Assembly (NCBI RefSeq): GCF_020532625.1 | Contig: NZ_JAJAUY010000013.1 | Coordinates: 1-64,000 of the forward strand | Direction: 5' to 3' | DNA from: Streptomyces antimicrobicus | GTDB lineage: Bacteria; Actinomycetota; Actinomycetes; Streptomycetales; Streptomycetaceae | DNA length: 64,000 nucleotides | Shown here: piece after piece, positions 382-46,838 of the stretch | Numbering within the stretch: position 1 is the stretch's first letter | How the letters are laid out: every line of letters starts with the position of its first letter | Program-made: the position numbers and the translations under genes | Notes under the pieces: generated by a model | Seen by the model: the letters and a program-made list of their open reading frames with translations, nothing else | Databases searched by the model: none | Told to the model about the DNA's origin: nothing

Positions 382-1392
382 TCAGGTGCGGCGGGAGCGC
401 CAGGTGAGGTAGAGGGCCGAGGTGATGGCGGCGGCTCGTACGGTCCAGGGCCACAGGGACTCGAACGCCGGGGCCAGCTGGCCGTCGAGCAGCGGGTCGC
501 CCCAGCGGCCGTCGGCGCGGCCCCACAGCCAGACCACCGCCGCCGCGCACACCGTGCCGGGCAGGCCGAAGACGACCCACTTCTTCTCCGCCGGGCCGAG
601 CACCTTCGAGGCGTACGCGACCAGCCAGCCGGCGGCGAGCAGCAGCCAGTAGCCGGTCACCGTCCCCGCCACCAGGACCGCCGCGGCCAGCAGCAGGGCC
701 CCGTGCCGCTGGGGGCGCGCCGCCGGGGCCTCCGGCGGGGGCGGGGCGGCGGCCTTGCGGCGCCGGCGGCGTTCGCGGAGCGCGCGGACCACGGCGCGGG
801 CCCGGGAGCCCGTGCCGCCGGCGGCCGCGTCGTCATCGCCCTCCGCGCCCTGCGCCTTCCCGGCGGTCGCCGCTTTCCGGGCGTCGGCGGGTGCGTCCGG
901 CTCGGCCGGGTCGTCCTCGTCGGCCTGGGGCGGGCGGAACGCCGGGTACTCGATGCCGCCCGCGAACCCCTCCACCTCGGGCTCCGCCAGCGGCCCGCCG
1001 CCGCGGGAGCCCTGGGGCAGGCGCCACCAGTCCGGTTCCGGGCCGGGGTCGGACGGGCCGAGCTCGTCCAGGCCCGCCATGTGCGGCGGATTCGCGGCGG
1101 TGCGCTGCTGCGGCACGGCAGGGGTGAGCGGCGGCGCCGGGTCCGCGGCCGGGGGGCGCGCGGCCAGCGCCTGGTGCTCGTCCAGCACCTGTTCCGGCGT
1201 GCCGAGCCGGTTGAGGATCTGCCGGACGGAGGCCTCCGTCTCCGGCTCGAACCGGGCCCGGCGCCGGTCGATCTCGTCCCGCAGTCCCGCCACGAGCCGC
1301 ATCCGGTCCCCGCTGGGCAGCTGCCGGCGTTGGGCCAGGTCCCCGACCCGGCTCAGATACGCGTACACCAGCTGGTCGCTCTCGATCCCCAC
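382..1392 (-). CDS. HAAS-like domain membrane protein of unknown function
   Basis: This is a 336-residue protein. The GTG start at 1392 is chosen because a GGGAGGAG ribosome site lies just upstream. Residues 1-75 form a charged helical region (VYAYLSRVGDLA, then LVAGLRDEIDRRR) resembling the HAAS/DUF1700 type of N-terminal signalling domain. A long Pro/Ala/Glu-rich linker follows. The C-terminal third has about four hydrophobic membrane segments, starting near ALLLAAAVLVAGTVTGYWLL. The gene is divergent from the helicase-like gene at 1490, with about 100 bp between starts. Function is not known; a membrane sensor or scaffold is possible. Confidence 0.8.
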   Translation of the reverse strand: MGIESDQLVYAYLSRVGDLAQRRQLPSGDRMRLVAGLRDEIDRRRARFEPETEASVRQILNRLGTPEQVLDEHQALAARPPAADPAPPLTPAVPQQRTAANPPHMAGLDELGPSDPGPEPDWWRLPQGSRGGGPLAEPEVEGFAGGIEYPAFRPPQADEDDPAEPDAPADARKAATAGKAQGAEGDDDAAAGGTGSRARAVVRALRERRRRRKAAAPPPPEAPAARPQRHGALLLAAAVLVAGTVTGYWLLLAAGWLVAYASKVLGPAEKKWVVFGLPGTVCAAAVVWLWGRADGRWGDPLLDGQLAPAFESLWPWTVRAAAITSALYLTWRSRRT

Positions 1393-1489
1393 GCCGGGCT
1401 CCTCCCGTCCGCCCTCCGTACCGCCCCGGGGGAAAGGTAGCGCGTGCGCCCGTGGAGCCGCCCCGGGCGCAGCGGATAACGTTGGCCGG

Positions 1490-4144
1490 ATGGCGACCGG
1501 AACAGGCGACCAGGAGGCGACCGTGCCCGAGGCAAGCACCACGGGGAGCGCGGCACCGCGTTCCCTCGCCGAGGCGCTGCGCGCCCGCGACGACGCGGCG
1601 CTCGTGGCCCTGCTGCGCGCCCGCCCGGACCTGCTCAATCCGGTCCCCGGCGACCTCACCCAGCTCGCCACCCGCGCCGGCACCCGCGCCTCGGTGGTGC
1701 GCGCCCTCGACCACCTCGACCGCTTCGCCCTCCAGACCGCCGAGGCCCTGGCCGTGGCCCCCGACCCCTGCGACGTCACCACCCTCGAAACCCTCCTGAC
1801 CGGCACCCGGCCGGCCCCCGCCGTGGGCCCGGCCGACAGCACCGGGGCCGGGGCGAAGGCCGGCGCGGGCGCCGAGCGGACCGGCGGAGCCGCCGCACCG
1901 GGGGACGGGGCCGGCCCGGCCGGGGGCGAAGGCCCGGCCCGGGGCGAGGGCGAGGGCCCCGCCGGGGGCGAGGCCGCGGGCGAGGGGGCGTTCGGCAGCG
2001 AGCTGGTGGCCGAGGTGCGGCGCGCGTTGCCGGGGGCGCTGGCCACGCTGCGGGACCAGGCCGTGGTCTGGGGGGACGACCGGACGCTGCGGCTGGTACG
2101 GACCGCCCGCGAACTACTCGCGCCGTCGCCCTCCCGGCCCTCGCCCACGGGCCTCGGCCCCACCGTCGCCGAGGCCACCGCCGGCATGTCGCCCACCCGC
2201 ATCCAGGAGATCGTGGCCGCCGCCGGGCTCCCGGCCACCCACGACCCGGTCTCCGCCGTCGCGGCCCTGACCGGCCTGTTCACCGACCCGGACCGGATGT
2301 CCGCACTGCTGGCGCAGGCCCCGCCGGAGGCGCACCACGTGCTGGCCCGGCTCGTGTGGGGCCCGCCGTACGGCGAGGTCACCCCCGAGCCGACGGCGCC
2401 GGTGCGCTGGCTGCGCGACCGCGGCCTGCTGCTGCCCGCCTCCGCGCGCACGCTCGTCCTGCCCCGCGAGGTGGCCCTGCACCTGCGCGGCGGGCGGGCC
2501 CACCGCCGGATCGAACCGCTCGCCCCGCCCGTCGTCGCCGCCCACACGCACCGCCCGGAGCAGGTCGACGCCAACTCGGCCGGGCAGGCGCTGGCCGCCG
2601 TCGCGACCGTCGAGGAACTCGTCGGCTCCTGGGACCAGGGCGGTCCCCCCGTGCTGCGCGCCGGCGGCCTGTCCGTACGGGACCTCAAGCGGACCGCCGT
2701 CGCCCTGGACGTCGCCGAGCCCGTCGCCGCGTTCTGGATCGAACTCGCCTACGCCGCCGGTCTGCTGGCCAGCGACGGCGAGGCCGACGAGCGCTACGCC
2801 CCCACCCCCGCCTACGACGACTGGGTCGAGGCACCGCCCGCGCAGCGGTGGGCCCGGCTCGCCACCGCCTGGCTGCCGGCCACCCGCACGTCCGGGGTGG
2901 TGGGCGAGCAGGACGCCAAGGGCCGCACCCTGTCCGCGCTCGGGCCCGACCTGGACCGCTCGGCCGCGCCCGAGGTGCGCCGCCGGGTCCTGGAACTCCT
3001 CGCCGAGCTGCCGCCCGGCGGCGCCGCCGAGACCGGCTCCCTCCTGGAACGCCTCGCCTGGGAACGCCCCTTGCGCGGCACCAGCGAACTGCGGGCCCGA
3101 CTCGCCCGCTGGACGCTCGCCGAGGCGGAGCTGCTCGGCGTCACCGGGCGCGGCGCCCTGGCCGGCGTCGGCCGGGCCCTGCTGGCGGGCACCGACCCGG
3201 CGCCGCTGCTCGCGCCGCTGCTGCCGGAGCCCGTCGACCACGTGCTGCTCCAGGCCGACCTGACCGCCGTCGCCCCCGGCCCGCTGCGCCGGCCGCTGGC
3301 CGAGACCCTGGCGGTGCTGGCCGACGTCGAGTCCAAGGGCGGCGCCACCGTGTACCGGTTCACGCCGGCCTCGGTGCGCCGGGCGCTGGACGCCGGGCAG
3401 GCCGCCAGCGACCTGCACGACTTCCTGGCGGCGCACAGCATCACGCCCGTGCCGCAGCCGCTGTCGTACCTGATCGACGACGTGGCCCGGCGCCACGGCC
3501 ACCTGCGGGTCGGCGCGGCCTCGTCGTACGTGCGTTGCGACGACGACAGCGTGCTCGGCGAGATCCTGGCCGACAAGCGCTCGGCCGGCCTGGGCCTGCG
3601 CCGCCTGGCTCCGACGGTGCTCGCCGCCACGGTCGAACCGCCCGCCCTGCTGGACGGCCTGCGCGCCATGGGCTACGCGCCGGCGGCCGAGTCCCACACC
3701 GGGGACGTGCTGATCACCCGCGCGGGCGCCCGCCGCACCCCGCAGCGCACCCCGCCGGTCCCGGTCCCGGAGGGCCCGCCGGTCCCGGACACGACCCTGC
3801 TGGCCGCGGCGGTCCGGGCGATCCGGGCGGGCGACGTCGCGGCCACCGCCGTCCGCCGCGAACCGGCCGCCGCCGGCGCCGCCGCCGGCGCGCCGGCCCC
3901 CGGCGAACTCCCCCGCACCAGCGCGGCCGAGACCCTGGCCACCGTCCAGGCGGCGGCCCTGACCGGCTCGGCGGTGTGGATCGGCTACGTCAACGCGGAG
4001 GGCGCGGCCAGCCAGCGCGTGATCGCCCCGGTCCGCGTCGAGGGCGGCTTCGTCACCGGCTACGACCACACCGCCGACGAGGTCCGCACCTACGCCCTCC
4101 ACCGCATCACCGGCGTAGCAGAACTGGCCGAAGACCACCTCTGA
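1490..4144 (+). CDS. Helicase C-terminal domain-containing protein (XPB/Ssl2 partner-like)
   Basis: This protein of about 884 residues lacks Walker A/B motifs. It resembles the conserved actinobacterial helicase-like, DNA-binding protein found beside the XPB helicase (compare mycobacterial Rv0862c next to Rv0861c). The N-terminal region (ARDDAALVALLRARPDLL) is followed by a low-complexity Gly/Ala/Glu insert at about residues 104-167. The far C-terminus (VWIGYVNAEG) looks like a WYL-type fold. Two starts compete. ATG at 1490 sits 7 nt after a TAACGT -10 box, fitting leaderless expression. GTG at 1523 has AGGAGG at 1512-1517. A DNA-repair or transcription-related partner role is inferred from the XPB helicase gene 1.3 kb downstream. 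Confidence 0.85.
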   Translation: MATGTGDQEATVPEASTTGSAAPRSLAEALRARDDAALVALLRARPDLLNPVPGDLTQLATRAGTRASVVRALDHLDRFALQTAEALAVAPDPCDVTTLETLLTGTRPAPAVGPADSTGAGAKAGAGAERTGGAAAPGDGAGPAGGEGPARGEGEGPAGGEAAGEGAFGSELVAEVRRALPGALATLRDQAVVWGDDRTLRLVRTARELLAPSPSRPSPTGLGPTVAEATAGMSPTRIQEIVAAAGLPATHDPVSAVAALTGLFTDPDRMSALLAQAPPEAHHVLARLVWGPPYGEVTPEPTAPVRWLRDRGLLLPASARTLVLPREVALHLRGGRAHRRIEPLAPPVVAAHTHRPEQVDANSAGQALAAVATVEELVGSWDQGGPPVLRAGGLSVRDLKRTAVALDVAEPVAAFWIELAYAAGLLASDGEADERYAPTPAYDDWVEAPPAQRWARLATAWLPATRTSGVVGEQDAKGRTLSALGPDLDRSAAPEVRRRVLELLAELPPGGAAETGSLLERLAWERPLRGTSELRARLARWTLAEAELLGVTGRGALAGVGRALLAGTDPAPLLAPLLPEPVDHVLLQADLTAVAPGPLRRPLAETLAVLADVESKGGATVYRFTPASVRRALDAGQAASDLHDFLAAHSITPVPQPLSYLIDDVARRHGHLRVGAASSYVRCDDDSVLGEILADKRSAGLGLRRLAPTVLAATVEPPALLDGLRAMGYAPAAESHTGDVLITRAGARRTPQRTPPVPVPEGPPVPDTTLLAAAVRAIRAGDVAATAVRREPAAAGAAAGAPAPGELPRTSAAETLATVQAAALTGSAVWIGYVNAEGAASQRVIAPVRVEGGFVTGYDHTADEVRTYALHRITGVAELAEDHL

Positions 4145-22220: not shown

Positions 22221-22239
22221 GACGGCGAGGCCCTTTCTC

Positions 22240-22375
22240 CTCATCTTCCTCGCGACGCACTTCGCCGCGAGACGGATTTGGCACCTTCCCTAGCCGGGGA
22301 CCTCGCTGCTGCGAGAACCGACTGGAGGGTTGCCGGGGCTTCAACGGGCCGTTTCCCTCTGCCCCTCTGGATGAG
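22240..22375 (-). promoter_or_regulatory. SAM-I (S-box) riboswitch
   Basis: On the minus strand the leader carries the S-box core in order: CTCATCCAGAGG, GCAGAGGGAAACGGCCC, TGAAGCCCCGGCAACC and GGAAGGTGCCAAATCC. A P4-like hairpin (TCGCG/CGCGA) and GAAGATGAG follow. P1 pairs CTCATC (22375-22370) with GATGAG (22245-22240). The 3' P1 strand runs directly into GGAGAAAGGG, the ribosome-binding region of the thrC-like gene, so SAM binding probably blocks translation rather than terminating transcription. A TACAGT -10 candidate lies at 22472-22477. Confidence 0.93.
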
Positions 22376-22579
22376 CGGTATGGCGCGGGACACCGCGCGC
22401 CATGGCGCGTTCCCGAGCGTTTGTGCGTGCGTGGGGACCCCGACATGCGGGGGTCCTCCGCGTTGTTCAAGACTGTAACCGAAGGGTCGGGCTGTTGAGA
22501 CTGCCGTCCGATCCGCGAGATGGATCACACCGGACGGCACATCCGGACCGCGCACAGGATCACACAGGGGAGCCCACAC

Positions 22580-26144: not shown

Positions 26145-26381
26145 ATGACGGACGACGCGCAGCTGACGGCGGTCGAGGCCGCCGTGCTCGCGTACGAGGG
26201 GCGGACCTGGCCGGGCCCCGGTGCCAAGGAGCGGGCGATACGCGAGGGCCTGGGCCTGACCCCGGTCCGCTACTACCAACTGCTCAACGCCCTCCTGGAC
26301 GACCCCCGCGCCCTGGCCCACGCCCCCACGACGATCAACCGCCTCCGCCGCCTCCGCACCACCCAACGCTCCCGCCGCTGA
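26145..26381 (+). CDS. DUF3263 domain-containing protein
   Basis: This 78-residue protein contains AVLAYEGRTWPGPGAKERAI and GLTPVRYYQLLNALLDDPRAL, diagnostic of DUF3263, a small actinobacterial helix-turn-helix-like family probably binding DNA. The tail is Arg-rich. TAGTGT at 26133-26138 lies 6 nt before the ATG, so it is likely leaderless. It is divergent from otsB with about 100 bp between starts, and is followed by a 132-bp inverted-repeat element. Confidence 0.93.
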   Translation: MTDDAQLTAVEAAVLAYEGRTWPGPGAKERAIREGLGLTPVRYYQLLNALLDDPRALAHAPTTINRLRRLRTTQRSRR

Positions 26382-26463
26382 CCCCCTGCAGAGGCCTCCG
26401 AAGCCCGGCCGGACGGAAACCGCCGGAGACCACACGGGGCGGCGCCTTCGAAGCACGGCCCAG

Positions 26464-26595
26464 GTCGGGGGCGCAGGGTGGGGGTGTTCGGGACGTAAAG
26501 CGTGATTTGTGGCGTGGTCACTGCACGAGCTGCGGAATCAGCCGGAACCGCCATAAATCATGCAGTCCCGAACACCCCCACCCGGAGCCCCCGAC
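26464..26595. repeat. 132-bp inverted-repeat element, copy A
   Basis: The element has outer arms GTCGGGGGC/GCCCCCGAC (26464-26472, 26587-26595), perfect 18-bp inner arms GGTGGGGGTGTTCGGGAC/complement (26477-26494, 26565-26582), and an inner near-match of GCGTGATTTGTGGCG to CGCCATAAATCATGC. The central 40 or so bases are not paired. The same element occurs in reverse orientation at 41443-41574, with a compensating change in the 18-bp arms. It lies between convergent genes. No transposase is present. Confidence 0.85.
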
Positions 26596-26742
26596 CCCCG
26601 AAGCCAAGCCCGGAAGCACCGCGCAGCGCGCTCCAGCCCGCCCGCCACGCTCCAGCCCGCCCACCGCGGGGCAGCCCGCCCGCCGCGGGCCCGCCGCGGG
26701 GCAGCCCGCCCCACCGGGCAGCCCCCGCCCCACCGGGCAGCC

Positions 26743-28041
26743 TCAGCGAGGATCGTTCGCCCGCGCAGCAGTCGCGATCTCCGACAGCACGCGGTCCGGG
26801 GAGCCCCCCGGAGCCACCGCCTTGCCGATGTTCTGCTTGATGTCCTCGCTCACGCCCGGCCACGACTTCTTGCCCGCCGGGTACAGCCGCGAGCCCGGCA
26901 GCGCCTGCAGGAACGTCTTCAGCTGGGCGCTGTTGCCGCCCGTGCTCGCGTTCGTCGCCCGGTAGCCGCTGGTGGTCACCGGCAGCAGGTCGTACGTGCT
27001 GGTGAACGCGGTCTGGTTCTTCGCCGTGTACACGAAGTCCAGGAACAGGCCCGTCTCCTTGCGGTGCTTGTTCTTGAACGCCATCATCCAGTCGGCCACG
27101 CCCATGCTCGGCTTGTCCGAGCCGTCCACCGTCGGCATCGGCACCATGCCGAAGCGGACCCCCTTGGCCGCGGCCTGCTTCAGCAGCGTCGGGTGCCCGT
27201 TGAGCATGCCGACCTCGCCGCGCGTGAACGCGTCGAACGCCGCCTGCCGGTCCAGCTTGCCCGGCTCGACCGGCCCGGTCAGGCCCTGGCCGACCATCCG
27301 GTCGCGCAGGAACTCGAAGGTCTTGACGTTCTCCGGCGAGTCGATCGCGTACTGCTCCTCGTTGTCGGTGTAACCGCCACCGCCCGCCAGCAGCCACATC
27401 ATCGTCTCGGCCTGGGCCTCCTCGCGGCCCAGCGGCAGCGCGAACGGCGTCGGCACGTTCGCCGCCTTCAGCTTCTTGGCCGCCGCCTCCAGGTCCGCCC
27501 ACGTCCTGGGCGCCCACGGCCGGCCGCCGGCGGTGATCCCGGCGTCCGCGAACAGCTTCTCGTTGTAGAACAGCAGCCGGGTGCTGGCCACGAACGGCAT
27601 GCCGTACTGCACCCGCTTGACCTTGCCGGCGTCGGCGAGCGGCGCGAGGAAGTCCGCCTCGGTCTGCACGGCGAGCAGCTCGTCGGTGGTGTAGAGCTTG
27701 CCGTCGGCGGCGTAGTCGGCGTAGGCGCCGATCTGCGCGATGTCGGGGGCCTTGCCCGCCTTGACCATCGCGGCGACCTTGTTGTCCACCTCCGACCAGG
27801 AGTACACGCTCACCTCGACCTTGACCCCGGGGTGGTCCTTGGTGAACTCGCCGGCCAGCTTCTTCCAGTACGCCGCCGACGAATTCGACGGATTGTCGCC
27901 GTAGTCGGCCGCCACGACCCGCAGGGTCACCTCGTTGTCCCCCGTGACGCTGCCGCACCCGGCCAGCGTCACGGTCAGCGACAACGCCGCTCCCGTCGCG
28001 GCCAGGCCCAGGTAACGATTGCGACTACGGCTCCGGCCCAT
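26743..28041 (-). CDS. Sugar ABC transporter substrate-binding lipoprotein (orphan)
   Basis: This 432-residue extracellular solute-binding protein has a signal peptide and lipobox (TVTLAGC, Cys near residue 30). Typical family-1 segments include LFYNEKLFADAGI, PRTWADLEAAAKKL, FTRGEVGMLNGHP and DWMMAFKNK. It should sit on the outer membrane face and deliver a carbohydrate to an ABC importer. No permease genes are adjacent, so it must share membrane proteins encoded elsewhere, with MsiK (46839) as the likely ATPase. The divergent nagK and the dre site at 28092 suggest an amino-sugar ligand. GTG 28044 is an alternative start. Confidence 0.92.
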   Translation of the reverse strand: MGRSRSRNRYLGLAATGAALSLTVTLAGCGSVTGDNEVTLRVVAADYGDNPSNSSAAYWKKLAGEFTKDHPGVKVEVSVYSWSEVDNKVAAMVKAGKAPDIAQIGAYADYAADGKLYTTDELLAVQTEADFLAPLADAGKVKRVQYGMPFVASTRLLFYNEKLFADAGITAGGRPWAPRTWADLEAAAKKLKAANVPTPFALPLGREEAQAETMMWLLAGGGGYTDNEEQYAIDSPENVKTFEFLRDRMVGQGLTGPVEPGKLDRQAAFDAFTRGEVGMLNGHPTLLKQAAAKGVRFGMVPMPTVDGSDKPSMGVADWMMAFKNKHRKETGLFLDFVYTAKNQTAFTSTYDLLPVTTSGYRATNASTGGNSAQLKTFLQALPGSRLYPAGKKSWPGVSEDIKQNIGKAVAPGGSPDRVLSEIATAARANDPR

Positions 28042-39406: not shown

Positions 39407-40597
39407 GTGAACGAAGTGAACGCCGCGGGAGAGCGGACCCGGGTGCTGGCCGCCGTCATGCACACGGCGTTCTTCCTGCTGCTCGGCGCCTCCCTCCTGC
39501 GCTTCCTGCTGCGCCACCCGGGCGAGCCCCGCACCCCCTGGATCATCGCCCTGAGCCTGGCCCTGGCCCTGCTCTACGTCCTCGGACCCGCCCTCGGCGC
39601 CGCACCGACCCTGCGCCGCCTGCTCTGGCTCGGCCTGGTCGTCGCGACCTGGCTGGTGCTGGTCGTCCTCGCGCCCAGCTTCGCCTGGTGCGCCGTACCG
39701 CTCTTCTACACCGCTCTGCGCACCCTGCCGCCGCGGGCCGCGGTCGCCCTGGTCGCCCTGCTCACCGTCTTCGTCGTGCTCGCCCAGCTCGAACTGGCCG
39801 ACACCTTCGACCCCAACCTGATCGTGGCACCGCCTGCCGTCGCCGCCATCGCCACCGCCGTCTTCATCCACATGGAACGGCAGAGCCAGGCCCAGCGCGG
39901 CCTGATCGACGACCTGATCCGCACGCGCCGTGAGCTGGCCGCCACCGAACGCCGCGAGGGCACCCTCGCCGAGCGGCAGCGCCTGTCCATGGAGATCCAC
40001 GACACCCTCGCCCAGCACCTGTCCAGCCAGCAGATGCTCCTCCAGGCCGCCGACCGCACCTGGGACACCGACCCCGCCACCGCCCGCGCCCACGTCCGCA
40101 CCGCCACCGGCATCGCCGCCCGCGGCCTGGCCGAGGCCCGCCGCCTGGTGCACGACCTGGCCCCGCCCGAGCTGGCCGGCGGCGCCGGACTGCCCGACGC
40201 GCTGCGGGCCCTGGACGCCGGACCCGACATCACCGTCCGCTTCCACCTGGAGGGCACCCCCGTCCCCCTGCCCGACCGCGCCCAGTCCGCGCTGCTGCGC
40301 ATCGCCCAGGGCGCGCTGGCCAACGTACGGGAGCACTCGCACGCCCGGACCGCCGCGCTGACCCTGTCCTTCCTCGGCGACCAGGTCGTCCTGGACATCG
40401 CCGACGACGGCCGCGGATTCACCGCGCCGCACCCCAGCGGCACCGACCGCGGCCACGGCCTGCCCGCGATGCGCGCCCGGGCCGGCCAGCTCGGCGGCAC
40501 CCTGACCGTGGAATCGGCGCCCGGCGAGGGAACGGTCCTCTCGGCGGCCATTCCCCTGGACAGCACCCCGCACCACAGAACGGACCCCGGGCCATGA
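39407..40597 (+). CDS. senS: NarL-type sensor histidine kinase SenS
   Basis: This 396-residue membrane kinase has about five N-terminal membrane helices (residues 14-145, from LAAVMHTAFFLLLGASLL), a HisKA_3 dimerisation domain with the phospho-His in LSMEIHDTLAQHLSSQQM near residue 205, and a HATPase region with NVREHSHARTA (N box) and DIADDGRGF (G1). The GTG start has AGGAG 6 nt upstream. Its last 4 bp overlap senR. The arrangement with divergent hbpS matches the known HbpS-SenS-SenR redox-sensing system. Confidence 0.92.
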   Translation: MNEVNAAGERTRVLAAVMHTAFFLLLGASLLRFLLRHPGEPRTPWIIALSLALALLYVLGPALGAAPTLRRLLWLGLVVATWLVLVVLAPSFAWCAVPLFYTALRTLPPRAAVALVALLTVFVVLAQLELADTFDPNLIVAPPAVAAIATAVFIHMERQSQAQRGLIDDLIRTRRELAATERREGTLAERQRLSMEIHDTLAQHLSSQQMLLQAADRTWDTDPATARAHVRTATGIAARGLAEARRLVHDLAPPELAGGAGLPDALRALDAGPDITVRFHLEGTPVPLPDRAQSALLRIAQGALANVREHSHARTAALTLSFLGDQVVLDIADDGRGFTAPHPSGTDRGHGLPAMRARAGQLGGTLTVESAPGEGTVLSAAIPLDSTPHHRTDPGP

Positions 40598-41217
40598 CGA
40601 CGATCCTGCTGTGCGACGACCACGTCGTGGTCCGGGCCGGCCTGCTGGCACTCCTCGGCAGCGAACCCGACATCGAGGTCCTCGGCGAGGCCGGCAGCGG
40701 CGAGGAAGCCGTGGCCCTGGCCGCCAAACTGCGCCCCGACGTGGTCCTCATGGACCTCCAACTCGGTCCGGGCATCGACGGCGTGGAAGCCACCCGCCGC
40801 ATCACGGCCCTGCCCGAGCCTCCGCACGTCCTCGTCCTGACCACGTACGACACCGACGCCGACATCACCCGTGCGATCAACGCCGGGGCCACCGGCTATC
40901 TGCTGAAGGCCGAGCGGCCGGAGGAGCTGTTCGCGGCGATCCACTCCGCGGCCCAGGGCCACACCACCCTCTCGCCACCGGTCGCCAACCGTGTGATGGC
41001 CCAGATGCGCGGGGCGCGTCCCACCCTGACCGACCGCGAACTGGACATCCTGGGCCAGCTCGCCCACGGCCTGGGGAACCGGGAGATCGCCCGGGCCCTG
41101 TTCATCAGCGAAGCCACGGTCAAGACGCACCTGGGCCGCATCTACGACAAACTCGGCGTGGACACCAGGGCTGGCGCAGTTGCGGTGGCCAAGGAGCAAC
41201 GCCTTCTGCCGTCGTAG
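40594..41217 (+). CDS. senR: NarL/LuxR-type response regulator SenR
   Basis: This 207-residue regulator has a receiver domain (MTTILLCDDHVVVRAGLLAL, with phosphorylated Asp in PDVVLMDLQLGPGIDG and Lys in GYLLKAERPEEL) and a C-terminal LuxR helix-turn-helix (LTDRELDILGQLAHGLGNRE, then IARALFISEATVKTHLGRIY). It is translationally coupled to senS (ATGA). In S. reticuli SenR controls hbpS and catalase-peroxidase genes; here the palindrome upstream of hbpS is a candidate target. Confidence 0.93.
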   Translation: MTTILLCDDHVVVRAGLLALLGSEPDIEVLGEAGSGEEAVALAAKLRPDVVLMDLQLGPGIDGVEATRRITALPEPPHVLVLTTYDTDADITRAINAGATGYLLKAERPEELFAAIHSAAQGHTTLSPPVANRVMAQMRGARPTLTDRELDILGQLAHGLGNREIARALFISEATVKTHLGRIYDKLGVDTRAGAVAVAKEQRLLPS

Positions 41218-41221
41218 CCGA

Positions 41222-41700
41222 GCCGGGCCGGGCTCCGCTCCGGCTCGGCTGCGGTGGGGCCGGGTCGGGCCAGCGGCCGGGCTACGACAGAAGCGGCCCC
41301 TGTCCCCGGGCCAAGCCGGGCCGGGCTCCGCTCCGGCTCCGCTGCGGTGGGGCCGGGTGGGGCCAGGGGGCCGGGCTGCGGCAGGAGCGGCCCGCGCACC
41401 CCGGCCAGGCCGAGCCGGGGCGCTCCGGGTCGACGTCAGGGGGCCGGGGGCTCCGGGTGGGGGTGTGCGGGACTGCATGATTTATGGCGGATCCGGACGA
41501 TCCAGCACCTTGCGCGGCGGTTACGCCACAAATCACGCTTTACGTCCCGCACACCCCCACCCTCCGCCCCCGACCCAGCCGGGCTACGACAGGAGCGGCC
41601 CCTGTCCCCGGGCCGAGCCGGGCCGGGCCCTGCTCCGGCTCCGCTGCGGTGGGCCCGGGTCGGGCCAGGGGGCCGGGCTGCGGCGGGAGCGGCCCCTGTG
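41222..41700. repeat. 93-bp-period GC-rich repeat array, interrupted
   Basis: Units beginning GCCGGGCCGGGCTCCG start at 41222 and 41315 (93-bp period), and a third starts at 41617. Each carries GCTGCGGTGGGGCCGGGT and CCGGGCTACGACAG-like words. The spacing between the second and third units is 302 bp because the 132-bp element B and flanking sequence lie between them. No gene is supported in the 639-base gap (41218-41856). Confidence 0.75.
41443..41574. repeat. 132-bp inverted-repeat element, copy B
   Basis: This is the reverse-oriented partner of the element at 26464-26595 and has exactly the same length. Its 18-bp arms read GGTGGGGGTGTGCGGGAC/complement (41456-41473, 41544-41561): the T-A pair of copy A is a G-C pair here, with both arms changed together. 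The inner words GCATGATTTATGGCGG and CGCCACAAATCACGCTTTAC are identical to copy A read on the other strand. The unpaired centre differs. It sits within a repeat array downstream of senR. Confidence 0.85.
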
Positions 41701-41856
41701 GTGGGGGGTCGGGCTGGTTCGGTCGGTGGAATCCGGTCGGGGCAGCCCTGTCTTCGGCCAAGCCGGGCGCCAGCCTTGTCGTGCACCTGCCGTATGCGGC
41801 ATTCCGCTGGCAGCCTCGCCAGGGCCACCCACGGCCCACCCCGCGAAGGAGCCAGA

Positions 41857-42975
41857 GTGTCCCACCCGCACTCCCCGCGCCCCCGCCCGGCAACCCCGGT
41901 CGCCCTCGCCCTGGCGACACTGGCCGCGGCCTGCCTGGCCACGGCGACCCCCGCCGCGGCGATCCCGGCGGCGGCAGCCGCCCCCGCGCCCGGCCCCGCC
42001 CTCGGCACCGGCCTGAGCCAGCACGCCGGCGCCGTCCCTCTCACCACGTACTGGACCGGCACGACCTACCAGCTCCGCGACCCCACCCGCGGCGACACCC
42101 GCACCCTCGACGCCATGAACCAGAGCACCGGCTCCGGTGGCGTCCTGTTCACCGACCCCGACAACACCTGGGGCGACGGCACCCCCGCCCACCGCCAGAC
42201 CGCCGCCGTCGACGTCCAGTACGGCTCCGCCGTGACCTGGGACTTCTACCTGGCGGCCTTCGGCCGCAAGGGCGTCCGCGGCGACGGCCGCGGCGTCACC
42301 TCCCGCGTCCACGTCGGCTCCGCCCACCCCGGCGCCCACTGGGACGACAGCTGCGGTTGCGTCGGCTACGGCGACGGCGCCCCCGGCGGCAAGGCCCCCA
42401 CCTCGCTCGACATCGTCGGCCACACCCTCGCCCAGGGCCTCGTCAGCAGCACCGGCAACCTCGCCTACAGCGGCGAGCCCGGCGCCCTGCGCGTCGCGAC
42501 CGCCGACATCCTCGCCGCGGGCGGCGAATTCTTCGCCGACAACCCCACCGACGTCGGCGACTACCTCTTCGGCGAGCGCCTCCAGCCCGACGCGCCCCTG
42601 CGCCGCATGGACCGCCCCAGCTCCGACGGCCGCTCCCCGGACTACTGGTCCAAGGACATCGGCCGGCTCGACCCCTACGCCGCCTCGGGTCCGGCCCGCC
42701 ACTTCTTCTACCTCCTCGCCGAAGGCAGCGGCACCAAGACGATCAACGCGGTCACCTACGACTCCCCCACCCACGACGGCTCCCGGCTCCCCGGCATCGG
42801 CCGCGACAAGGCCCTGCGCATCTGGTACCGCGCCCTGACCCTGAACATGACCTCCACCACCTCCTACGCCGGCGCCCGCACCGCCACCCTGCGCGCCGCC
42901 ACCGACCTCTACGGACCCGCGAGCCCGGAGGCCACCGCCGTGGCCGCCACCTGGACGGCGGTCAACGTCCGCTGA
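41857..42975 (+). CDS. Secreted thermolysin-like (M4) protein lacking the catalytic site
   Basis: This 372-residue protein has an Ala-rich signal peptide (residues 1-40) followed directly by an M4 peptidase fold: TYWTGTTYQLRDPTRGDTRT, GVLFTDPDNTWGDG, YDSPTHDGSRLPGIGRDKAL and YAGARTATLRAATDLYG. The zinc/catalytic motif HExxH is HTLAQ (189-193), the region holding the third ligand Glu reads GALRVATADIL (Val at 213), and the VHxxSG His region reads PYAASG. It also lacks the FTP/PepSY propeptide. It should therefore be a non-enzymatic secreted protein. GTG 41857 has GAAGGAG upstream. Confidence 0.88.
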   Translation: MSHPHSPRPRPATPVALALATLAAACLATATPAAAIPAAAAAPAPGPALGTGLSQHAGAVPLTTYWTGTTYQLRDPTRGDTRTLDAMNQSTGSGGVLFTDPDNTWGDGTPAHRQTAAVDVQYGSAVTWDFYLAAFGRKGVRGDGRGVTSRVHVGSAHPGAHWDDSCGCVGYGDGAPGGKAPTSLDIVGHTLAQGLVSSTGNLAYSGEPGALRVATADILAAGGEFFADNPTDVGDYLFGERLQPDAPLRRMDRPSSDGRSPDYWSKDIGRLDPYAASGPARHFFYLLAEGSGTKTINAVTYDSPTHDGSRLPGIGRDKALRIWYRALTLNMTSTTSYAGARTATLRAATDLYGPASPEATAVAATWTAVNVR

Positions 42976-46560: not shown

Positions 46561-46634
46561 AGCCCCCTGTCGGGTTCGAACCGACGACCCCCGCTTTACA
46601 AGAGCGGTGCTCTGGCCAGCTGAGCTAAGGAGGC
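46561..46634 (-). tRNA. tRNA-Thr (anticodon TGT)
   Basis: A 74-nt cloverleaf is readable on the minus strand: acceptor GCCTCCT/AGGGGGC with discriminator T, D-arm GCTCAGCTGGCCAGAGC, anticodon loop CTTGTAA with TGT at 46600-46598, and T-arm GTCGGGTTCGAACCCGAC-like. CCA is not encoded. It reads ACA and, by wobble, other threonine codons. Confidence 0.95.
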
Positions 46635-46763: not shown

Positions 46764-46779
46764 CGTGGACTAGACCAAG
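46764..46779. promoter_or_regulatory. dre-like (DasR) operator upstream of msiK
   Basis: CGTGGACTAGACCAAG matches the DasR consensus AGTGGTCTAGACCACT at 12 of 16 positions with an intact CTAGACCA core. It lies 60 bp before the msiK start and partly overlaps a GTCCAC-TTC-GTGGAC hairpin (46756-46770). msiK is a known type of DasR target. Confidence 0.7.
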
Positions 46780-46838
46780 ACACTCCTTCCACTCGGATCG
46801 TCCGGCACGTTCCTGCCGGTAGAAGGGATGCATCACCC

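Follow-up and report, generated by a model that had tools for sequence, protein, structure and literature searches.

What kind of element is a long palindrome that occurs twice, in opposite orientations, in 64,000 nucleotides of Streptomyces antimicrobicus DNA? The whole of this stretch is referred to here as the window. The first-pass annotation, which had placed both copies (A and B) correctly and had recognized their opposite orientation, left the choice between a MITE-like or REP-like element and a structured RNA or bidirectional terminator. The features that bear on this choice are listed in Table 1.

Table 1. Positions of the two palindrome copies, their structural parts and the adjoining features in the window.
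Feature	Position	Strand	Remarks
Copy A, whole palindromic element	26463..26596	+ (sense)	core 26470-26585, 121.4 bits with covariance model R1
Copy A outer helix, 5' perfect arm GGGTGGGGGTGTTCGGGAC	26476..26494	+	
Copy A conserved 5-nt internal loop GTAAA, single A opposite	26495..26499	+	
Copy A inner helix, 5' strand GCGTGATTTGTGGCG	26500..26514	+	
Copy A variable apical region	26515..26548	+	64% mean identity among the 16 host copies (96% in the arms)
Copy A inner helix, 3' strand CGCCATAAATCATGC	26549..26563	+	
Copy A outer helix, 3' perfect arm GTCCCGAACACCCCCACCC	26565..26583	+	
Copy B, whole element	41445..41574	- (sense)	core 41453-41568, 117.9 bits with model R1
DUF3263 protein gene, left of copy A, pointing at A	26145..26381	+	
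Solute-binding protein gene, right of copy A, pointing at A	26743..27972	-	
LuxR-type response regulator gene, left of copy B	40594..41217	+	
M4 peptidase gene, right of copy B	41857..42975	+	
Array of an approximately 93-bp unit, interrupted by copy B	41217..41704		

The innermost arms are perfect in both copies, as had been claimed, and measure 19 bp in each rather than the 18 bp given. Copy A carries a T-A pair where copy B has G-C, with both sides changed; the inner words are the same in the two copies, and the center, described earlier as unpaired, does differ but is partly paired in single folds. When interruptions are included, the arms of copy A span 32 nt (26463-26494 and 26565-26596) and are 94% complementary. 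The outermost bases at the end of copy B (...GAGCCCCCGGCC) do not show the GTC/GAC type of pairing of copy A. As RNA, the plus strand of copy A is predicted to fold with -95.9 kcal/mol (z = -10.8), and none of 200 shuffled sequences was as stable; the opposite strand gave -87.5 kcal/mol. The 21-nt core word, with up to three mismatches allowed, matched the window twice, exactly in both cases, and had no match in 100 shuffles.

Copy A sits tail to tail between the DUF3263 and solute-binding protein genes, which converge on it. Copy B is downstream of the LuxR-type response regulator and upstream of the M4 peptidase gene. The earlier remark that no transposase is present holds for the element and for the scanned genes adjoining A and B, which encode DUF3263, a solute-binding protein, a trehalose-phosphatase, a histidine kinase, the LuxR-type response regulator and the M4 peptidase. 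The DUF3263 gene (26145-26381) and the solute-binding gene occupy opposite strands here and share a strand in 17 of 18 relatives' loci, pointing to a local gene inversion beside copy A. No second element bordering this inversion was found. In the other opposite-strand case (L240), another palindrome-type repeat lies alongside in direct as well as inverted copies.

Further copies, whose absence the first-pass annotation had named as the result that would speak against its proposal, were found in large numbers in the host and in related Streptomyces. A whole-genome search with copy A gave at least 16 full copies in the host, a lower bound obtained by scoring the best 40 of 49 candidates, together with three partial copies (at the ends of contigs C255 and C227, and a 30-nt piece on C259). 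On the sense strand, the full copies follow one plan, in which the two outer arms enclose GGGACGTAAAGCGTGATTTGTGGCG (or a sequence close to it), a variable stretch of about 35 nt and CGCCATAAATCATGCAGTCCC, in this order. Mean identity among the 16 host copies is 96% in the arms and 64% in the tips. A GAAGCC tail is common to 8 of the 15 host copies with a readable 3' flank.

A covariance model (R1) built from 28 members identified carriers in 14 of 99 genomes of the order, host included, all of them Streptomyces; there was no match among the 15 of them outside the genus. Copies per carrier genome range from 1 to at least 32 on the sense strand. The largest carrier, Streptomyces sp. NBC_00249 (G107), gave 37 matches including antisense ones, which represent at least 32 sense-strand places; match counts in this search include antisense and come from scoring the best 37 candidates per genome, and are therefore lower bounds. 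With BLAST, 7 of 100 genomes were carriers, again including the host. Since BLAST had scored as empty a genome (G018) in which the model found a member (L244:91-203, minus strand, 55.3 bits), the prevalence figures are also lower bounds. A pattern scan of named genomes returned at least 94 stretches, and all 80 listed titles were Streptomyces. BLAST gave no match in phages, the core pattern had no exact match in viral contigs, and 1 of 72,556 plasmid records matched; phage or plasmid cargo was rejected on these results. The element is thus a dispersed long-palindrome family of patchy distribution, found only in Streptomyces so far.

Above threshold, the Rfam matches in the window were a SAM riboswitch (22238-22377, minus), a tRNA (46561-46634, minus) and the msiK RNA (46777-46835, plus), with no family for the element. 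For host copy C212, the best matches were three microRNA models and one lncRNA model, all far below threshold. A known RNA family was accordingly rejected, no score for the element having exceeded an Rfam gathering threshold. No tRNA or tmRNA was found in the four G169 loci scanned. Among the titles listed by topic and sequence-word searches of the open-access literature, none described the element. The hairpin family is seemingly undescribed, although an entry elsewhere is possible. It falls into the same category, multicopy structured motifs, as the mobile or repeat candidates of an ncRNA discovery pipeline (PMC11109978), and may be identical with one of those candidates.

In its general plan, the hairpin has a variable tip, a near-fixed inner helix with conserved G-U pairs, in most cases an approximately 5-nt bulge on one side, and an outer helix that is variable but paired. 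The element is 110-150 nt long. For 28 members collected without a pattern, RNAalifold gave 31 pairs, 16 of them with two-sided changes; the inner helix was nearly invariant, and its G-U pairs were kept in 26 of 28 and 28 of 28 rows. In 54 rows from other loci (alignment A4), 96.7% of cells pair and two-sided changes occur at 17 of the 19 outer-helix pairs. The covariation score of these rows was 0.374, compared with 0.130 for shuffled alignments (0 of 500 as high) and at most 0.065 when the partner was slid. Most rows of A4 stem from the 80 listed loci. The pattern used to pick these loci prescribes the inner helix, whose invariance in A4 is a matter of construction, and only the outer helix counts there; one row is the antisense of L087. 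Compensated inner-helix changes were seen in the distant members G060, G131, G136, G158 and G169. Of 15 members folded, 13 have a bulge or internal loop on one side, 5 or 6 nt long, which is lacking in G134 and in L036 of G038, and in 14 of the 15 folds the sense strand was more stable than the antisense strand. The covariation noticed between copies A and B is therefore strong in additional members, in the 28-member as well as the 54-row alignment. The sequence is maintained as one long base-paired hairpin whose outer helix is free in sequence and still paired.

The element is intergenic and lies mostly at the 3' ends of genes. For the count of locations, genes were called with a custom codon-usage script rather than a published caller, and six motif matches with at least 17 edits were dropped. 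The 148 uncollapsed motif matches comprised 52 convergent, 69 co-directional and 10 divergent sites; the other matches were at the edge of a contig or locus (14) or fell within a called gene (3). Collapsing gave 81 independent loci (two of which mix classes), 35 convergent, 39 co-directional and 7 divergent, compared with 49, 237 and 123, respectively, for element-free intervals of at least 20 bp at the same loci. The odds ratio was 12.6 for convergent versus divergent intervals (p = 1e-10) and 4.3 for convergent versus co-directional ones (p = 3e-7). At co-directional sites, the element had the same orientation as the gene in 21 cases and the opposite one in 22 (13 and 17 for independent loci). 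As there is no orientation preference relative to the preceding gene, a strand-specific structured RNA is disfavored. The higher stability of the sense strand would fit a function of the RNA strand, yet gene orientation is unbiased. A replication-strand bias was likewise rejected (15 of 25 in a hand count of fork direction, p = 0.42). For one distant member (L092:2013-2095), the surrounding sequence was called as a long open frame (1248-4115, minus), which reflects either an in-frame insertion or an error in gene calling.

At several loci, the element occupies the same place in three to six species. In 59 orthologous pairs, identity is 90% in the arms, 63% in the tip and 57 and 64% in the flanks, with 45-63% for shuffled sequences; this comparison took in sets S4 and S5 minus L091 and L118, and omitted S6 as well as four sets of two species. 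With tip and flanks near the shuffled level, the arms have been kept while their surroundings were largely lost. Conversion by other copies may contribute to this conservation at shared loci. For six copies that occupy such loci in NBC_00249, values average 0.87-0.92 with 25 paralogues and go no higher than 0.74-0.86 with orthologues, which argues against simple vertical descent, and a GGGAT/ATCCC version of the bulge-side helix end is common to 20 of the 21 NBC_00249 copies read. Nevertheless, the concerted pattern is not universal across copies. At locus S3, which adjoins a putative pssA gene, the avidinii and CG926 copies matched orthologues best (0.84-0.91, versus 0.75-0.77 for the best paralogues), and several other copies from outside NBC_00249, for example L139 of lavendulae and L025 of G038, also favored orthologues. 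The 18 relatives' loci holding both genes that flank copy A had no model match between these genes. The host and NBC_00249 carry the element in different intergenes of one gene cluster. Copy number and positions thus differ between species.

The borders of the repeated unit also vary. In NBC_00249, all 15 matches to a leader pattern with at most one mismatch immediately precede the element on its 5' side; the five matches with two mismatches are all elsewhere. Another dispersed repeat (CTCAAACGCCGG type; CTCCGCCCCAGACCCC...CCTCAAACGCCGGCGGGGCTG) lies up to 190 nt upstream of 13 of the 21 copies inspected in this genome (L056-L074), in the same order, giving a two-family mosaic. The unit of G169 is mostly a composite of about 580 bp with two inverted hairpins (L076-L083). 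These composites have a conserved non-coding middle without an Rfam family, and L054 matches L142 from S. abyssalis. Differences in unit borders between species speak against a transposase acting on fixed ends. The array around copy B (41217-41704), between the response regulator and M4 peptidase genes, has a GC-rich unit, of which there are 2.2 clean tandem copies and one more on the far side of B. Its boundaries are ambiguous and gave no clean reading of a target duplication, and the four other site comparisons were too diverged and had ambiguous borders. A neighboring gene carried along with the element was rejected as well, since the 25 largest clusters of neighboring genes looked like orthologous loci and not like a travelling gene.

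REPs are dispersed extragenic palindromes with a conserved imperfection, which prefer gene ends and are homogenized within genomes; they measure about 20-40 nt and carry a GTAG-type tetranucleotide. Like the REPs or palindromic units, BIMEs and REPINs of enterobacteria and Pseudomonas, the Streptomyces element is an imperfect extragenic palindrome in many dispersed copies (at least 16 in the host; 81 intergenic loci), with a conserved imperfection, a location at gene ends, some inverted pairs and homogenization. It differs in its greater length (110-150 versus about 20-40 nt), its far fewer copies and its outer arms, which vary between species, and there is no constant GTAG at the stem foot in the copies inspected. 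According to PMC2817692, which also describes the BIME layout, more than 100 copies per genome are usual for REPs. Of 17 carriers, 3 had a match to the Y1/RAYT transposase domain PF01797, as did 8 of 20 non-carriers; there was none in the host, NBC_00249, G169, G042 or G039. A RAYT partner was rejected on this pattern, 14 of the 17 carriers searched having no RAYT match. Together with the differences in length and copy number, it means that the family cannot be filed under REP/BIME.

The element also shows what is expected of a U-less bidirectional transcript-end hairpin, namely a stable hairpin at 3' ends, with convergent genes favored. A scan of 26380-26745, which covers copy A, found no terminator-like site of the canonical kind (hairpin plus U tract). 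According to PMC8269248, 353 of 1,427 transcript 3' ends of S. clavuligerus are strong stem-loops lacking a U tract and are likened to I-shaped terminators; on that account, the missing U tract at copy A is no obstacle. The Streptomyces element shares with these I-shaped, or HS-U-lack, ends a GC-rich, stable and U-less hairpin at 3' ends that is usable from both sides, and is distinguished from them by a much longer stem, a large variable tip, a conserved inner sequence and bulge, and its nature as a repeated family. Convergent transcripts commonly overlap, according to PMC3765725, which would give a barrier at such sites a plausible use.

The explanation favored here, to which we give about an even chance, is a REP-like palindrome family that is not RAYT-linked, serves as a transcript-end hairpin in both directions and contains an inner motif read by a protein, its function being inferred. 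Transcription from either side would produce a long RNA hairpin. This hairpin may end or protect the transcripts of neighboring genes, in the manner of an I-shaped, U-less terminator that works in both directions or of a barrier at 3' ends. Sequence-free paired arms, gene ends, both orientations and the retention of arms at shared loci fit such a two-way transcript-end hairpin. Because gene-end position and shape are kept while the sequence changes, the family probably helps to end or protect transcripts. Purging of insertions close to promoters would also leave the element at gene ends. The conserved asymmetric bulge and inner sequence would be superfluous in a plain terminator, and the conservation of bulge and G-U whichever the gene direction suggests that termination alone is insufficient and that a protein reads the DNA. 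The inner motif may be read at the DNA level by a putative protein, in double-stranded form or as an extruded or single-stranded hairpin; reading of DNA is made more likely by the retention of the asymmetric motif in both orientations to transcription. The copies would spread and be homogenized within a genome without fixed ends, most simply by recombination or gene conversion. Among the identities first proposed, REP-like and bidirectional-terminator-like agree with location and structure, MITE-like lacks support, and strand-specific structured RNA is disfavored. We also entertain, tentatively, a genus-wide class of bulged hairpins read as single-stranded or extruded DNA by a putative trans-acting protein, with copies evolving concertedly to the genome's version and also serving as two-way transcript ends, REP-like without RAYTs.

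Bulge and wobble features of hairpins serve as recognition for HUH enzymes. The element could accordingly be a non-autonomous mobile hairpin, moved as single-stranded DNA by a putative nuclease through an IS200/IS605- or RAYT-like mechanism, with bulge and G-T wobbles recognized and gene-end position reflecting tolerance. We regard this as doubtful. The conserved one-sided bulge and G-U/G-T wobbles, the independence of orientation, copy numbers from 1 to at least 32, inverted pairs and composites recalling BIMEs, and the expansions in NBC_00249 and AcH 505, which look young and have arms that are nearly identical, are all in its favor, whereas the occurrence of PF01797 (3/17 carriers against 8/20 non-carriers), the lack of a significant fork-direction bias (15/25, p = 0.42), the orthologous-looking loci without a travelling gene in the 25 largest neighbor clusters, and unit borders that vary by species, with leaders dragged along, speak against it. 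A classic MITE, which would have arisen from a DDE-type insertion sequence by internal deletion and would show terminal inverted repeats as well as target duplications, is very unlikely. MITEs are likewise short, non-coding, inverted-repeat and multicopy, the element is absent between the copy A flanking genes in 18 relatives' loci holding both, and the G169 composite of about 580 bp has inverted ends; however, there are no fixed termini across species and no readable target duplication, the 93-bp array showing no clean one at copy B, the search for PF01797 yielded no partner transposase, the arms are conserved at orthologous loci, and the outer arms vary freely yet stay paired, unlike transposase-bound terminal repeats.

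If instead the two inverted TGATTTRTGGCG half-sites were the target of a nucleoid, gyrase-like or regulatory protein on duplex DNA, the hairpin would be secondary. Nearly invariant inner half-sites, orientation independence and the species version of the inner motif in 20 of 21 NBC_00249 copies read are consistent with this. Nevertheless, the spacing from half-site to outer arm is unequal (8 versus 4 nt in copy A) and long sequence-free paired outer arms are needless for a dimer site, which makes such a site unlikely. Template-switch correction of quasi-palindromes during replication can yield two-sided changes without selection, and the arms of neutral leftovers might match through this process only. 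We consider that highly improbable, as such correction is expected to remove the conserved bulge and the asymmetry of the G-U pairs and could not account for arms at 90% identity amid nearly randomized flanks.

The original two-copy observation therefore holds and is larger than stated, the copies belonging to a genus-scattered family. It bears on how Streptomyces ends convergent transcripts, many of them without U tracts, and on whether REP-like repeats can arise and persist without RAYT transposases. With a covariance model, dozens of loci, orthologous retention and one genome with apparent concerted change, both questions are directly testable.
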